This document shows positions 4,075 to 14,700 of a stretch of DNA of 64,000 nucleotides, piece by piece. Both the position numbers and the translations under genes were made by a program. Position 1 is the first letter of the stretch; each line of letters starts with the position of its first letter. The notes beneath the pieces were generated by a model, which saw nothing but the letters and a program-made list of their open reading frames with translations, searched no databases and had not been told where the DNA came from. The stretch comes from an uncultured Pelagibacteraceae bacterium. GTDB lineage: Bacteria; Pseudomonadota; Alphaproteobacteria; Pelagibacterales; Pelagibacteraceae. The stretch is taken from positions 1 to 64,000 of the forward strand of contig CACFAI010000001.1 in NCBI GenBank assembly GCA_902564265.1. The letters run 5' to 3'.

Positions 4075-5415
4075 ATGAGTCAAAAACCTTCTATACCAAA
4101 TTCGCTCAATGAACATTGGATGCCATTTACATCCAATAAAGACTTTAAAGAAAGACCAAGATTAATTACTGAGGCTAGAGGTGTTTATTTAAAAAATCAT
4201 GAAGGTAATACTCAAATAGACGCAAGCTCAGGATTATTCTGTAATCCTTTAGGTCATGGCAGACAAGAAATTATAGATGCAATATCAAATCAATTAAAAA
4301 CTTTAGACTATGCTCAACCGTTCCAACAAGGTTTTGGTGGATCGTTTGAATTAGCAACAAGAATTTCAAAACACACACCAGGAAATTTAAATAGAATTTT
4401 TTATACAATATGCGGATCGACTGCAGTTGAAACAGCAATAAAAATTGCAATCGCTTATCATAAAGCAAGAGGTGAAGGACATAGATTTAGATTTGTTGGA
4501 AGAGAAAGAGCTTACCACGGAATGAATATTGGAGCCACTTCAGTTGGTGGAATGATTAATAACGTAAAAACTTTTGCAAGTGTATTGATGCCAGGCGTTG
4601 TTCATATGAGACATACTCATTTACCAGAACACAAATTTGTTTCTGGACAACCAGATACTGGTGCAAATAGAGCAGAAGATTTAGAAAGAATTTGTACAAA
4701 CTTTGGTGCAGAAAATATTGCAGCATGTATTGTTGAACCAATTGCTGGTTCAACTGGAACATTAGTTCCTCCTAAAGGATATTTACAAAAACTAAGAGAA
4801 ATTTGTGACAAACATGGAATACTTTTAATTTTTGATGAAGTTATAACTGGATGGGGAAGAACAGGTTCTGCTTTCGGTGCACAAGAGTTTGGAGTTACGC
4901 CAGATATAATGACTATGGCAAAAGCTACAACAAATGGAATTGTTCCAATGGGTGTTGTTGCAAGTAAAGAAGAAATTTATGACACGATAATGGATGCATC
5001 TCCAAAAGGAACAATTGAATTGTTTCATGGTTATACTTATTCAGGTATTCCAATTTCAGTTGCAGCTGCACTAGCTGTACAAGATATTTTTGAAAAAGAG
5101 GATATTTTTAAAAGAGTAAAAGAATTAGCACCGTACTTCCAAGATGGCTTGATGTCTTTAAAAGATTTAGAGGCAGTAGAAAATATAAGAGGTTACGGAA
5201 TGATGGGTGGAATTGATATGAAGATGGATCAAAAACCTGGAAGAGCAGGACTTACAACTTTCAAACATTGTTATGATGCTGGTGTAAACTTTAAAGCTAC
5301 AGGAGACTGTTTGATTATTGCACCAATGTTTATATCTGAGAAAAAACATATTGATGAAATAATTGAAAAATTAAGAACTGGTATTAGCAATTATTCTAAA
5401 AGTAAGAAAAATTAA
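4075..5415 (+). CDS. tpa: Class III omega-aminotransferase, probable taurine--pyruvate aminotransferase
   Basis: HWMPFTSNKDFK, PLP site LIFDEVITGWGRTG...TMAKATTNG; context with tauABC and ald. Confidence 0.75.
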   Translation: MSQKPSIPNSLNEHWMPFTSNKDFKERPRLITEARGVYLKNHEGNTQIDASSGLFCNPLGHGRQEIIDAISNQLKTLDYAQPFQQGFGGSFELATRISKHTPGNLNRIFYTICGSTAVETAIKIAIAYHKARGEGHRFRFVGRERAYHGMNIGATSVGGMINNVKTFASVLMPGVVHMRHTHLPEHKFVSGQPDTGANRAEDLERICTNFGAENIAACIVEPIAGSTGTLVPPKGYLQKLREICDKHGILLIFDEVITGWGRTGSAFGAQEFGVTPDIMTMAKATTNGIVPMGVVASKEEIYDTIMDASPKGTIELFHGYTYSGIPISVAAALAVQDIFEKEDIFKRVKELAPYFQDGLMSLKDLEAVENIRGYGMMGGIDMKMDQKPGRAGLTTFKHCYDAGVNFKATGDCLIIAPMFISEKKHIDEIIEKLRTGISNYSKSKKN

Positions 5416-6546: not shown

Positions 6547-8991
6547 ATGAGTAAAAAAATACCTAGTAGCACAAAAGTTGTGGTTATTGGTGGTGGGGTT
6601 GTTGGATGTTCATGTGCTTATCACTTAGCAAAATTTGGGTGGAAAGATGTTATCCTTTTAGAAAGAGACAAACTTACTTCAGGTACCACTTGGCATGCAG
6701 CAGGATTAGTTAGTCAACTAGGACCCTCTGCAACAATTACAAAAATTAGAAAATATTCTTTAGATTTGTATAAAGAATTAGAAAAGAAAGTGGATCATTC
6801 AGCAGGGCTTAGATTAAACGGCGCAATGTCAATTGCTCAAAAAGAGGGAAGATGGCAAGAATTAAAAAGACAAGCAACCACTGCTCAACTTTTTGATGTT
6901 GATGTACAAATTTTAAATAAAGATCAAATCAAAGAAAAAGTTCCATTAATTAAAAATGATGATTTGTTGGGTGGTATTTTAATGCCTGGCGATGGTTCAG
7001 GAGATCCATCCGGAATAACTCAATTACTTGCTAAAGCTGCAAGAGCAGAAGGTGCAAAAATTTTTGAAGACTCGCCTGTCGAAGATATTTTAGTAAAGAA
7101 TAAAAGAATAGAAAGTGTGGTTGTTAATGGAGAAAAAATTGAGTGTGAATATATTGTTTTAGCAACAGGAATGTGGTCAAGACAAATTGGAGAAAAGTTA
7201 GGTGTAAGTATTCCATTATATCCTGCTGAACATTTTTATGTAATTACTGAACCAATAAAAGAAGTACCAAAAGATTTACCAGTAATCAGAGATTTTGATA
7301 GTAGAACTTATTTCAAAGAAGATGCTGGAAAATTACTTTTAGGAATATTTGAAGGAAAATCAATTCCTGCATTTGATAAAACAAATAAAGTTCCAGAAGA
7401 TTTTTCTTTTGGTGAGTTTCCAGAAAATCTTGAACATTTTGAACCTTATTTAAATGCATGTATGAAAAGATTTCCTATTTTAGAAAAAACAGGAATTAGA
7501 AAGTTTTTTGCAGGACCAGAATCTTTTACACCAGATACAAATACTTTATTAGGTGAAGTGCCTGAAGTTAAAAACTTTTTTGTTTGTTGTGGTTTAAATA
7601 GTATTGGAATAGCAAGTGCAGGAGGTGTTGGTAAAGTAACAGCTGAATGGATGATGAACGGTCATATTAATGAAGATATTTTTAGTTATGACATTAAAAG
7701 ATTTCAAAAATTTCACTCTGGTATTAATTTTATTAAAGAAAGGGTAACAGAAACACTTGGTGATTTATATGGAATGCATTGGCCATATAAACAACATAAA
7801 ACTTCAAGAAATGTAATTACTCTTCCTTATCACGATAGATTAAAAGAACATGGTGCATGTTTTGGTGTTTCAGGTGGTTATGAAAGACCAATGTGGTTTT
7901 CAAAAGATGAGAAAAATAAAGATTACAAATATAGTTACAATTATCAAAATTGGTATCCAAGTGCAGAGTTTGAAACAAAAAATGCAAGAGCAAATGTAGG
8001 TTTATTTGAATTATCCCCATTTTCAAAATTTGATTTAAAAGGTGAAAAAGTTCACGAAGAATTGCAAATATTGTGTACAGCAAATATTCCAAATGAACCT
8101 GGTAAAATTAAATATACACAAATGTTGAATTCAGATGGTGGAATTGAGACTGATTTAACTGTTATTTGTATTGAAAAGAATTATTTTAGAATTGTTTCTT
8201 CTGCTGCAAATAGAGAACATGATAAATTTCATATTTTAAAGCATATTTCTAAAGATGTGAAATTAACTGATGTAACAGAAGACTATTGTTGTTTAGGTTT
8301 ATTTGGTCCTAAAAGTAGAGAAATGATTTCTTCAATAAGTACAGATGATTTTTCTAATGAAAACTTTAAATTTGGTACAGCTAAATTTGTTAAAATTGAT
8401 GATGTAGAAGTATGGGCCCAAAGAATTTCATATGTGGGTGAATTAGGTTTTGAACTTTATGTAAAAAAAGAAAATGCTTTAGAACTTTTTGATATTTTAA
8501 TTGATAAAGGTAAAACTTATAAAATTTCTCTTTGTGGAATGCATGCAATGGATATTATGAGGATGGAAAGTGGTTATTTACATTGGGGCCACGATATTTC
8601 ACCTGAAGAAAACCAATTTGAGGCAGGTTTAAACTTTGCTGTTAGTTTTAAAAAGAATATAAATTTTATCGGAAGAGCTGCTTTGGAAAAAAAGCGAGAC
8701 AAAAAGGACCATAAGAAATTTAAAATGCTCATTTTGAACCATTCTAAAGAAGGAGCGCCTCTTCTGCTCCACGACGAGCCGATCTATTTAAAAGATAAGA
8801 TTGTGGGTCGTACAACTTCTGGCTGTTACTCTTTTAATTACAACAAAAATTTAGCATTTGGCTATATTAATTCAGGCTTAACTAGCGATCAAATAGATAA
8901 ACAAGCCTTTGAGATAGAGGTTGAGAAAAAAAAATACCCGGCATCTGTGATAACTAGACCTCTTAATGATAAAAAGTTGAGCTCTCTTTAG
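6547..8991 (+). CDS. FAD-dependent oxidoreductase fused to GcvT-like aminomethyltransferase domain (dimethylglycine/sarcosine dehydrogenase family)
   Basis: N-term VVVIGGGVVGCSCAYHLAKFGWKDVILLERD...TSGTTWHAAGLV; C-term GcvT/FAO domains (RISYVGELGFELYV, MRMESGYLHWGHDI). Confidence 0.8.
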   Translation: MSKKIPSSTKVVVIGGGVVGCSCAYHLAKFGWKDVILLERDKLTSGTTWHAAGLVSQLGPSATITKIRKYSLDLYKELEKKVDHSAGLRLNGAMSIAQKEGRWQELKRQATTAQLFDVDVQILNKDQIKEKVPLIKNDDLLGGILMPGDGSGDPSGITQLLAKAARAEGAKIFEDSPVEDILVKNKRIESVVVNGEKIECEYIVLATGMWSRQIGEKLGVSIPLYPAEHFYVITEPIKEVPKDLPVIRDFDSRTYFKEDAGKLLLGIFEGKSIPAFDKTNKVPEDFSFGEFPENLEHFEPYLNACMKRFPILEKTGIRKFFAGPESFTPDTNTLLGEVPEVKNFFVCCGLNSIGIASAGGVGKVTAEWMMNGHINEDIFSYDIKRFQKFHSGINFIKERVTETLGDLYGMHWPYKQHKTSRNVITLPYHDRLKEHGACFGVSGGYERPMWFSKDEKNKDYKYSYNYQNWYPSAEFETKNARANVGLFELSPFSKFDLKGEKVHEELQILCTANIPNEPGKIKYTQMLNSDGGIETDLTVICIEKNYFRIVSSAANREHDKFHILKHISKDVKLTDVTEDYCCLGLFGPKSREMISSISTDDFSNENFKFGTAKFVKIDDVEVWAQRISYVGELGFELYVKKENALELFDILIDKGKTYKISLCGMHAMDIMRMESGYLHWGHDISPEENQFEAGLNFAVSFKKNINFIGRAALEKKRDKKDHKKFKMLILNHSKEGAPLLLHDEPIYLKDKIVGRTTSGCYSFNYNKNLAFGYINSGLTSDQIDKQAFEIEVEKKKYPASVITRPLNDKKLSSL

Positions 8992-11236: not shown

Positions 11237-11247
11237 TTTAAAATAGT

Positions 11248-11310
11248 GGCGGGGTAGCTCAGTTGGTTAGAGCGCGGGACTCATAAGCCCGAGGTCAGTG
11301 GTTCGATCCC
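11248..11310 (+). pseudogene. Truncated tRNA-Met(CAT) remnant (first 63 nt only)
   Basis: 63 nt identical to 13499-13561; 3' T-stem and acceptor strand replaced by ctcaatttcctaatt, so the cloverleaf cannot close. Confidence 0.85.
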
Positions 11311-11342
11311 CTCAATTTCCTAATTAATTTAAGCAAACATAA

Positions 11343-11380
11343 ATATTGGTCCACTGGTGGTCCACTGATAAGTTAGTTTT
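11343..11380 (+). repeat. TGGTCCA-rich leader repeat, copy A
   Basis: atattggtccactggtggtccactgataagttagtttt; 36/38 identical to 12608-12645; directly upstream of ATG at 11383. Confidence 0.85.
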
Positions 11381-11382
11381 TA

Positions 11383-12348
11383 ATGAAAAATAAAGATTAT
11401 AAAAGTTATAGCTATGATCAACTGCTGACTTTTGAAAAACAAGGCCCAGTTTTAATTGAAAAATTAGTAGATCAAAGCGATAAAAAAGATACAAAAATAA
11501 AAGATCTCAAGTCTAGGTTAGAACATATCGACGAAACAATTAAAACTTCTGTAGAAAAAAAGATTGGAGTTAAACCTGGATCAAGCTTTAGAAATTTCTT
11601 TGATAAATTATACGATGATAATTTTGGATATTTTGCTGGTGGTTGCATTTTATTAGGATTTCTCCATTTAAAAATTAACGTTAATCTTCCAATTATTTTA
11701 TCAGCTATGGGAGCATTTATTTTAATTGGACCTGGTATAATGATTGGTTTGATGCTGGGATTAACAGTCTTAGAAACAATAATTAAATTTTTAATTGGCG
11801 GCGATGCACAAGATAAATACCAAAAAAAATATGAAAAATTATTTGAGCAAATTAAAAAAGATAAGCACAAGAAACCAATTGAATTAATCCATAAAAAAAT
11901 TGAAGATCTTGATGATGAAAAAAGTACGTTATATGTAGAACGTAGGGATATAGAAAAAGCTTTAAATGAAATTGTTTCTCTTAAGCGAAGAGCTAAAAAC
12001 AAAGAAGATAGAGCAAAAATTGCAGCATTTAATAATAAAGCTAGATCTGCAGCAAGTTATGTGAGGGCAAGTTTATTAAAAGAGATACTAAATAAAAAAA
12101 AATGGGAATGTCCCTATTGTCACAAAATGTATGATATTGAAAACAAGAATTATACTAAATTATTAGATGCAGATCACATTCATCCTGTTCACAAAGGTGG
12201 CTTAAGCACGAAACAGAATATGATTTTAGTTTGCAAAAGCTGCAATTCTAAAAAAAAAACACTCACACTTAGACAATTCTGCAAAATTAGAAGACTAGAC
12301 TATGAAAAAACTTGCAATGTATTAGAGAAAATGGGCAAAGATGTTTGA
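11383..12348 (+). CDS. Membrane-anchored HNH endonuclease-like protein
   Basis: N-terminal coiled coil, hydrophobic helices LPIILSAMGAFILIGPGIMIGLMLGLTVLETIIKFLIGG, second coiled coil, C-terminal HNH/zinc motif WECPYCHKMYDI...LDADHIHPVHKGGLSTKQNMILVCKSCNSKK. Confidence 0.8.
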   Translation: MKNKDYKSYSYDQLLTFEKQGPVLIEKLVDQSDKKDTKIKDLKSRLEHIDETIKTSVEKKIGVKPGSSFRNFFDKLYDDNFGYFAGGCILLGFLHLKINVNLPIILSAMGAFILIGPGIMIGLMLGLTVLETIIKFLIGGDAQDKYQKKYEKLFEQIKKDKHKKPIELIHKKIEDLDDEKSTLYVERRDIEKALNEIVSLKRRAKNKEDRAKIAAFNNKARSAASYVRASLLKEILNKKKWECPYCHKMYDIENKNYTKLLDADHIHPVHKGGLSTKQNMILVCKSCNSKKKTLTLRQFCKIRRLDYEKTCNVLEKMGKDV

Positions 12349-12439
12349 ATTAGATCTTCAATATTGTATAGTTTCTTAGTCCTGATTTAGAAAATATCTC
12401 TACTTGCTGGGACTTTAAACACAACGCTAAAGGAGGCAA

Positions 12440-12607
12440 ATGAAAATAATAATACAATCAATAAAAAACTATTTTAAATCAAAGAAGGATAGGGGATTAG
12501 AACCTGTATTTTTTGAAAAGATAGGTGATAAAAAAACATCTAGAGATCAAATGCGTAAGAATCTAATAAAAGCACTAGAAAAAAACGGCTGGACTATAAA
12601 AAAATAG
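12440..12607 (+). CDS. Small 55-aa protein of unknown function (below ORF-track cutoff)
   Basis: Own translation MKIIIQSIKNYFKSKKDRGLEPVFFEKIGDKKTSRDQMRKNLIKALEKNGWTIKK; strong Shine-Dalgarno aaaggaggcaaATG. Confidence 0.65.
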   Translation: MKIIIQSIKNYFKSKKDRGLEPVFFEKIGDKKTSRDQMRKNLIKALEKNGWTIKK

Positions 12608-12645
12608 ATATTGGTCCACTAGTGGTCCACTGATAAGATAGTTTT
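12608..12645 (+). repeat. TGGTCCA-rich leader repeat, copy B
   Basis: atattggtccactagtggtccactgataagatagtttt; 36/38 identical to copy A; immediately followed by ATG at 12646. Confidence 0.85.
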
Positions 12646-13083
12646 ATGAGAAAAATATTAACAATAATTTTTTTTAGTTTATTAATACCAAATAGCATTA
12701 ATGCTAATCCAATAAAGGCTAACTGGGTTGTCAAAAAAGCTATTGTGTCGAGCGTATTCCTGAAAACAGAGGATACAATTGGGAAAGAACAGTTTTTTTC
12801 AAGAGAAAAATCAGAAGGAGTTTTTTTTAATTGTCCATTTGGTGCAGGTGAGGTCAGTAGTTACACAACATATAACTATGATGAGTTTATTAATAATAAA
12901 CAATTTAAGATCTTTAAGCAAAATATCAAAAAATTAAATTTTCCAATAAATAATAAAATTTACGTAGAAAAATTAACTTGCGCAGATAATAAATCGGTCC
13001 TTTATCCTTTTATACAATTTGAAAATAGCGATATTGCATTTTATGAATTTGGTCTTGGAATTTATCAATTAAATAAAAAATGA
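12646..13083 (+). CDS. Putative secreted protein of unknown function
   Basis: Signal peptide MRKILTIIFFSLLIPNSINA; no recognised domain. Confidence 0.6.
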   Translation: MRKILTIIFFSLLIPNSINANPIKANWVVKKAIVSSVFLKTEDTIGKEQFFSREKSEGVFFNCPFGAGEVSSYTTYNYDEFINNKQFKIFKQNIKKLNFPINNKIYVEKLTCADNKSVLYPFIQFENSDIAFYEFGLGIYQLNKK

Positions 13084-13349
13084 CCTCTCATGATAACTTG
13101 ATAGCTAGAATTTTTTTAACTGTTTTATGTGGCGGTATTTATCTAACAGTTCTAATATTAATAATTACTGGATTTGATATTTTATTTAAGAGTATTATTT
13201 GGGAGTCAATTTGGGATTTGTTTTTTTCTAATTCAAAACAAAATCCACTTCAAAGAGTTGGAATAATCTTAATGCTTGCTTTTTTTATAGGACTTATAAC
13301 ACCTATAATTTTTCCTAAACTTCCTAAAACATTTAAAAAAGAAAAATGA
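13080..13349 (+). CDS. Small two-TM membrane protein of unknown function
   Basis: Overlaps previous stop by 4 nt (ATGA); two hydrophobic helices. Confidence 0.55.
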   Translation: MTSHDNLIARIFLTVLCGGIYLTVLILIITGFDILFKSIIWESIWDLFFSNSKQNPLQRVGIILMLAFFIGLITPIIFPKLPKTFKKEK

Positions 13350-13364
13350 TTAGTCACACACGGG

Positions 13365-13415
13365 GGTCCCATGGACCAAATTTTTTGGTCCAATTTTGGT
13401 CCACTGGTGGTCCAC
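13365..13415 (+). repeat. TGGTCCA cluster, copy C, with inverted repeats
   Basis: ggtcc-cat-ggacc (13365-13377); TGGACCAAA-ttt-TTTGGTCCA (13372-13392); ttggtccactggtggtccac (13396-13415), the last identical to 11346-11365. Confidence 0.8.
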
Positions 13416-13498
13416 AGAGAAACCCTTATTAAACGCAATTTCTTAATTTCTTGTTTGAACGAAAAAAAATAAGTAGTATAAATCAATACGAATTTAAT

Positions 13499-13575
13499 GG
13501 CGGGGTAGCTCAGTTGGTTAGAGCGCGGGACTCATAAGCCCGAGGTCAGTGGTTCGATCCCACTTCCCGCTACCA
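13499..13575 (+). tRNA. tRNA-Met (anticodon CAT), CCA encoded
   Basis: ggcggggtagctcagttggttagagcgcgggactcataagcccgaggtcagtggttcgatcccacttcccgctacca folds as a cloverleaf: acceptor GGCGGGG/TCCCGCT, T-arm AGTGG-TTCGATC-CCACT, anticodon loop CTCATAA. Confidence 0.9.
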
Positions 13576-13623: not shown

Positions 13624-14700
13624 CTAGTTTATCCATTTATTAAAAATCAAAAAATCACTTAAGGTTAAACCTGATAAGCTTTTGTGTATATTTCTAGTTA
13701 TAGGAATTCCATCTTTGAAAAAATCATTATCAGATTTTTTTTCGTTAATTGACCATTCCTTTGGATAATTCATTTTATGATTAATATCTTTAAATTCAGG
13801 ATATTTAACAGCATACTCCGAGCAACCTCTTTTTATTTCATGTTTAAATTTTTTGCCGAGTATTATTTTTATTACAGGTGTTATTTCTTTTGATAATTTT
13901 TCAGCTGATTCAATACTATTTAGGTAAATATAGCCTCTAAAATTTCTTAATTTTCTATCTACCATACATTTTCTATTAAAAAGATTTAAATTTTTATACT
14001 GGTCAAAAAAAAGAACAAGCTTAATTATATCAAACGGTTTATCTAAATAAATTACAATCTTTATGCAACTAAAACAAAATTTCGGAATAGTATTAAATTT
14101 GAAAAAAATTCGTTTATGTCTTTCACAATTTAGGTCTATTTCATTTCTTCTGAAAATTTGATCTTCATTGAATTCAAAGTTGTCAATTTTTTGTGCTTCT
14201 AATTTGCATTTATCGATTATGTCCGAAATGAATTCATCTTTTATTTTCTCTCGAAAATTAATCTTAGAGTTAATTTTTTGAATTTTGTTATTAATATCTA
14301 CCAAATTATTATTAAAATTTTTAACAGGATTAATGTGAGACAAAAGTTTTATTATTGCAAACTTACTCCGTTTATCATTTGAACTTTTATAAACCTTCAA
14401 AAAAAAATCTAAAGATTTTGTCAATTCTCCCTTATCATAATAGGCTATACCTAAATTAAAATATGGATCCAAAGTTTTTGGATTTGACTGAATAGCTTTA
14501 TTAAAATAAAAAATACTCTTTTCCCAATCCTTTAACCCCAAGTTTATTAGACCTAACAAGTTTAGATAAAAGTTTGAATTTTCCAATTGCAGATGTTTTG
14601 ACTGAGATAAATTAGCTTCCAGAAGGGCTTTTTTAAAATTTTGATTTTTATAAAGTGTAACTATTTTTTGTATTTCTGAATTTATTAAATTTTCACTCAT
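13624..14700 (-). CDS. TPR-repeat protein with uncharacterised C-terminal domain
   Basis: NFYLNLLGLINLGLKDWEKSIFYFNKAIQSNPKTLDPYFNLGIAYYDKGELTKSLDFF is TPR-like. Confidence 0.65.
   Translation of the reverse strand: MSENLINSEIQKIVTLYKNQNFKKALLEANLSQSKHLQLENSNFYLNLLGLINLGLKDWEKSIFYFNKAIQSNPKTLDPYFNLGIAYYDKGELTKSLDFFLKVYKSSNDKRSKFAIIKLLSHINPVKNFNNNLVDINNKIQKINSKINFREKIKDEFISDIIDKCKLEAQKIDNFEFNEDQIFRRNEIDLNCERHKRIFFKFNTIPKFCFSCIKIVIYLDKPFDIIKLVLFFDQYKNLNLFNRKCMVDRKLRNFRGYIYLNSIESAEKLSKEITPVIKIILGKKFKHEIKRGCSEYAVKYPEFKDINHKMNYPKEWSINEKKSDNDFFKDGIPITRNIHKSLSGLTLSDFLIFNKWIN

Follow-up and report, generated by a model that had tools for sequence, protein, structure and literature searches.

Small cassettes that target tRNA genes and carry a tRNA-fragment repeat have been described as additive flexible genomic islands in Actinomarinales (PMC7771536) and Methylophilaceae (PMC10872708). 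SNIPE is a GIY-YIG nuclease of the inner membrane that cleaves phage DNA as it is injected and becomes toxic once its membrane segment is removed (Nature 2026, PMC13190303); ZorE, the HNH nickase of Zorya type II, is a soluble protein recruited by the ZorAB motor (PMC11890865). The locus described here, in a 64,000-nt stretch of DNA from an uncultured Pelagibacteraceae bacterium (hereafter, the window), can be compared with each of them: an islet of 2,188 bp lies between a fragment of a tRNA-Met gene and the intact gene, and encodes an HNH protein with a putative membrane segment. SAR11 bacteria have some of the smallest genomes of any free-living cells, and these genomes are often assumed to be poor in defence genes. 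Islets of 1–4 kb at one tRNA gene, with exchangeable and often nuclease cargo, would show how cheaply such cells can gain and trade defence. Should the HNH protein act at the membrane, HNH would be a second nuclease type, evolved independently of the GIY-YIG of SNIPE, that is put to this use.

An integrative islet at tRNA-Met

The left boundary of the islet (11244–11310; all islet features given here are on the + strand) is a 5′ fragment of tRNA-Met, nt 1–63 of which lie at 11248–11310 (Rfam tRNA partial match, 35.7 bits). It forms a 67-bp direct repeat with 13495–13561, with one mismatch and 64 nt exact, and the second copy falls in the intact tRNA-Met(CAT) gene that the islet restores (13499–13575). 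The fragment is followed by a conserved left end (11311–11390) that includes a first TTGGTCCACTGGTGGTCCAC repeat (11347–11365), always 37 nt past the tRNA fragment, and then by the HNH gene. A second repeat (12600–12657, 86% identical to 11335–11392) divides this cargo unit from another, which consists of genes for a 145-aa protein with a signal-peptide-like start (12646–13083) and an 89-aa membrane protein (13080–13349), neither assigned to a family. The conserved right end (13349–13498) holds several TGGTCCA(C) repeats and a likely tRNA promoter region. With one unit formed by the HNH gene and a small open reading frame, p55, and the other by the 145-aa and 89-aa genes, the islet looks like the product of accretion of a second unit.

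A close relative (G048) holds a single tRNA-Met without an insert at the same place, downstream of an SBF transporter gene 98% identical to the window's, so the window segment is an insertion. Because the fragment is the 5′ part of the tRNA, the islet would have come with a 5′ part and leader of its own; on insertion, these would rebuild a whole tRNA and strand the 63-nt fragment at the far end. An exact 64-nt repeat of part of a tRNA, an intact tRNA and an empty site together place the islet among tRNA-integrated cassettes. The preliminary description, made without comparison to other genomes, had called the HNH gene island cargo, and the tRNA-Met fragment boundaries, the empty site in the close relative and sister islets with different cargo bear it out. 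Mobility of the islet is thus well supported. Directly 3′ of the tRNA-Met, a TPR gene (13624–14700) that is missing at that place in G048 marks another variable insertion, with no visible tRNA fragment.

Sister islets and their exchangeable cargo

A scan for the islet repeat found ten Pelagibacteraceae loci, and with further searches the islets with both boundaries numbered 11, the window's included. The tRNA fragment, a right end of ~150 bp and a left end whose TGGTCCACTRGTGGTCCAC repeat lies exactly 37 nt past the fragment are common to all 11, and the TGGTCCAC repeats are present in ten sister islets as in the window islet. Islet sequences occurred in 5 of 150 and 7 of 397 sampled genomes, all of the window's genus (three chance matches removed). 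Matches to the left-end pattern in G420, G453 and G268 were set aside as chance, with no tRNA-Met nearby.

The cargo between the left end and the p55 module differs in nearly every islet. It includes a ResIII/helicase protein of 1,090 aa that matches a PADLOC type IIG restriction model (2.7e-70) and is the sole large cargo of its islet (L177:8047–11319), an Mrr_cat nuclease (2.6e-12) accompanied by TerB, a T5orf172 (GIY-YIG-type) protein (1e-4), a treble-clef DUF4379/CapR protein with a PD-(D/E)xK-like stretch recognized by eye, and unassigned membrane or secreted proteins. Nuclease or restriction-type genes are present in 4 of the 11 islets, or 5 when the treble-clef protein is counted, a tally for the islets alone. 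Since about half of the sister islets are without a recognized nuclease gene (L097, L141, L144, L149, L173 and L179), the islets do not, as a family, amount to dedicated defence islands.

The same islets bear on the idea that the HNH protein works on behalf of its own islet, cutting or nicking uninterrupted tRNA-Met sites or islet ends for spread in the manner of a homing endonuclease. The frequent use of the HNH fold by homing nucleases, the lack of an integrase in the islets and the other nucleases in several sisters would all fit. However, the islets without a recognized nuclease have the same ends, so a nuclease is not needed for insertion; the boundaries resemble site-specific recombination within a tRNA, and a membrane anchor would make no sense for homing. 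We regard this explanation as quite unlikely.

Source of the integrase

No integrase is encoded in any of the 11 islets. The window genome has a single PF00589 protein (tyrosine recombinase), at C1:174126 and outside the islet, and most sister genomes have one or two tyrosine recombinases of similar length, which by size alone look like XerC/XerD. Tycheposons carry their own tyrosine recombinase, and we rejected a tycheposon assignment for an islet that has no recombinase inside it. The islet also differs from tycheposons and additive-island cassettes in its SAR11 host, its defined conserved ends with their repeats, its SAM-II-like leader with p55 and its 5′-side tRNA fragment. No earlier description of the SAR11 islet family appeared in the literature searched, the coverage of which was incomplete. 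The mobile context of the HNH gene is firm and of a kind known from additive islands.

We assume that an integrase acts in trans, supplied from elsewhere. The islet repeat, right end and p55 were all absent from the viral contigs and phage records searched, which therefore give no evidence for a phage carrier. The tRNA-Met of G318 has an islet on its 5′ side and, immediately on its 3′ side, a prophage-like region that encodes a tyrosine integrase (PF00589, 2.3e-4, below cut-off) and starts at about position 5190 of the reverse complement of L173. Use of the 3′ side by this region and by other insertions would suit a role for the HNH protein in inter-element conflict, in which it keeps rival prophages or islets away from a tRNA-Met site already taken, rather than protecting the host as such. 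But this is the single prophage-like region seen, an islet sits alongside it in that genome and has no recognized nuclease, and we consider a site-guarding role improbable, even more so than homing.

An HNH protein with a probable membrane hairpin

The HNH gene (11383–12348) translates into 321 aa with zero internal stops, and the protein is arranged as a coiled coil, a hydrophobic segment, a second coiled coil, an HNH domain and a C-terminal helix. The HNH domain named in the preliminary description was recovered by a Pfam profile search, with PF01844 matching aa 243–292 (codons at 12109–12258) at E = 6e-10 and 39.5 bits against a cut-off of 21.4; HNH_5 also matched (E = 2.9e-6), barely above its cut-off. 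The motifs are intact, comprising CPYC (aa 243–246), DADHIHPVHKGG/DADHIHP, QN and CKSCN, with the DH and N residues in place. A profile match above the curated cut-off together with the C-C / DH / N / C-C motif makes the protein a member of the HNH endonuclease superfamily.

The rest of the proposed architecture held up in all but one part. Heptad bias was strong at aa 20–62 (a/d positions hydrophobic at 0.58 versus 0.16 at other positions) and at aa 166–205 (0.75 versus 0.21), and these coiled coils, which flank the hydrophobic segment, are basic, strongly charged stretches. The hydrophobic segment (aa 82–137, codons at 11626–11793), a probable membrane hairpin by hydropathy and low-confidence helices, has its Kyte–Doolittle 19-mer maximum (mean 2.31) at aa 112–130. 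On a rough scale of insertion energy, aa 102–134 are favourable and aa 82–98 weaker, so that the second arm of the hairpin has a clear, TM-like hydrophobicity, whereas the first arm is only probable. A single-sequence AlphaFold model of the protein (P0001) placed helices at aa 68–98 and 102–137 with a mean pLDDT of 42.9, too weak for use.

Neither 200 relatives nor 349 genomes of the phylum (E ≤ 1e-8) yielded a full-length relative of the HNH protein, so its gene is not a core gene, and the objection foreseen in the preliminary description, that homologues might be fixed core genes, falls away. Searches with back-translated patterns found no homologues in viral and genome collections, and the N-terminal 230 aa had no relative in the 200 relatives, where all matches had E > 0.008. 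Matches elsewhere cover the HNH domain alone or together with the preceding coil. Other SAR11 HNH matches were rejected as homologues: those inspected are ~330-aa HNH-HIT proteins with only the HNH domain in common, and the remaining ones are mostly open frames of ~190 aa. The best relative, the HNH protein WP_012592925 from Thauera plasmid pTha01, shows 37% identity over the C-terminal 111 aa (aa 211–321), the C-terminal helix included. Like the islet protein, it combines a coiled coil, an HNH domain and a C-terminal helix on a mobile element; unlike it, it has no hydrophobic hairpin, and the N-terminal 200 aa of the islet protein are not detectably related to it. An alignment search of viral contigs based on the Thauera protein yielded one weak HNH match, and PHROG HNH families match aa 163–312.

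The hairpin-free plasmid relative and the PHROG matches would both suit a soluble coiled-coil HNH nuclease, restriction-like or of phage type, in which the hydrophobic stretch forms a buried helical hairpin or oligomer core and any defence is cytoplasmic. Against this, aa 102–134 reach a hydrophobicity typical of transmembrane segments and lie between strongly charged stretches, and we think a soluble protein unlikely. That the gene is a functionless passenger, newly acquired and decaying, could account for its presence in one genome only among those searched and for its lack of relatives. The intact 321-codon frame, the full set of HNH motif residues and a composition that resembles that of the neighbouring genes speak against decay, and of the explanations considered this seems to us the most improbable.

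A candidate membrane-tethered nuclease

As the best joint explanation we propose, with some reserve and at slightly less than an even chance, that the HNH gene is exchangeable cargo of an integrative tRNA-Met islet and that its product is tethered to the membrane and cuts incoming DNA. A helical hairpin would hold the protein in the inner membrane, and the HNH domain and the two coiled coils would lie on the cytoplasmic side. Phage or plasmid DNA would be cut on arrival at the membrane, while the tether would keep the nuclease off the nucleoid. A role in defence or inter-element conflict is plausible because genes of nuclease or restriction type occur in 4–5 of the 11 islets and because SNIPE offers a precedent. 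Besides the hairpin-free nearest relative of the HNH part and the weak first arm, the PADLOC search counts against this proposal: no model was convincing, and the best (PtuB, 7.4e-6; LmuB, 1.7e-4) covered the HNH domain or the coiled coil only.

Like SNIPE, the HNH protein is a single protein with a (here putative) membrane segment in its N-terminal half, a helical middle and a C-terminal nuclease domain, and it would likewise act at the inner membrane; SNIPE homologues also vary in their N-terminal regions. The membrane segments of SNIPE homologues lie within the first 70 aa (PMC13190303), whereas the putative one of the HNH protein is at aa ~82–137. SNIPE combines DUF4041 with GIY-YIG; the islet protein has HNH instead and gave no DUF4041 match in Pfam at E ≤ 1. 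Lacking both SNIPE domains, it is not a SNIPE, but by analogy it may work like one. ZorE is similar as an HNH nuclease that is drawn to the membrane when a cell is infected, but the islet has no ZorAB-like gene. We rejected Zorya II, since the neighbours of the HNH gene encode an SBF transporter, p55 and the 145-aa and 89-aa proteins and include neither ZorA nor ZorB. Septu (PtuA/PtuB) and Lamassu (LmuB with an SMC-like partner) were rejected as weak matches at the level of the HNH domain or coil, with no ATPase gene in the islet. Whether this is a single-gene system, as had been suggested, is uncertain because the islet also holds the 55-aa frame, the 145-aa predicted secreted protein and the 89-aa membrane protein.

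The p55 module

A block of ~233 bp on the 3′ side of the HNH gene, 91–93% identical in most sister islets, encodes p55, a conserved 55-aa open reading frame (12440–12607). Among the complete islets, p55 is present in 10 of 11 and missing only from L143, and its variable columns fall 12:4:32 by codon position, indicating purifying selection. It is headed by a SAM-II-like riboswitch leader (12369–12452; RF00521, 26.7 bits, E = 0.0024, below the gathering score of 36), and the SAM-II model matched with similar, sub-gathering strength at several other loci. P1 and pseudoknot pairing is preserved in the leader, and at two pairs both partners have changed, which lends modest support. AlphaFold predicted three helices for p55 with a pLDDT of 65, too low for a fold search.

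The module of p55 and SAM-II-like leader was found in 24 of the 200 relatives (L183–L207), suggesting a wider family of p55-marked islets, and it provides a marker for counting them. Some copies lie near tmRNA (L193, L195) or another tRNA-Met (L199, L202). A more ambitious joint reading, which we consider doubtful, is that these elements form a modular, integrase-less SAR11 cassette system, located at tRNA-Met and, for its p55-bearing relatives, at tmRNA and elsewhere. Unrelated and often nuclease cargo would sit between the left end and the SAM-II-like RNA/p55 module; p55, under control by SAM, would govern excision or mobilization, and the HNH cassette would be a new single-gene membrane-tethered defence nuclease.

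Other insertions at the site

Insertions on the 3′ side of tRNA-Met in L118 (G019), L119 (G051) and L125 (G108) have left 3′ fragments of the tRNA (nt 24/25/28–77); they are in tandem in G108, and their cargo includes secreted and trypsin-like proteins. The L120 locus (G061) has a gene for a 437-aa secreted protein between a diverged 44-nt 5′ fragment of tRNA-Met and tRNA-Met (7237–8946); without the usual islet ends, it may be an old islet or one of a different type. Unrelated cargo proteins of L118, L125 and L179 begin with a near-identical signal peptide (MKKLLGIVVLGLL...), as though leaders had been exchanged between different mature parts.
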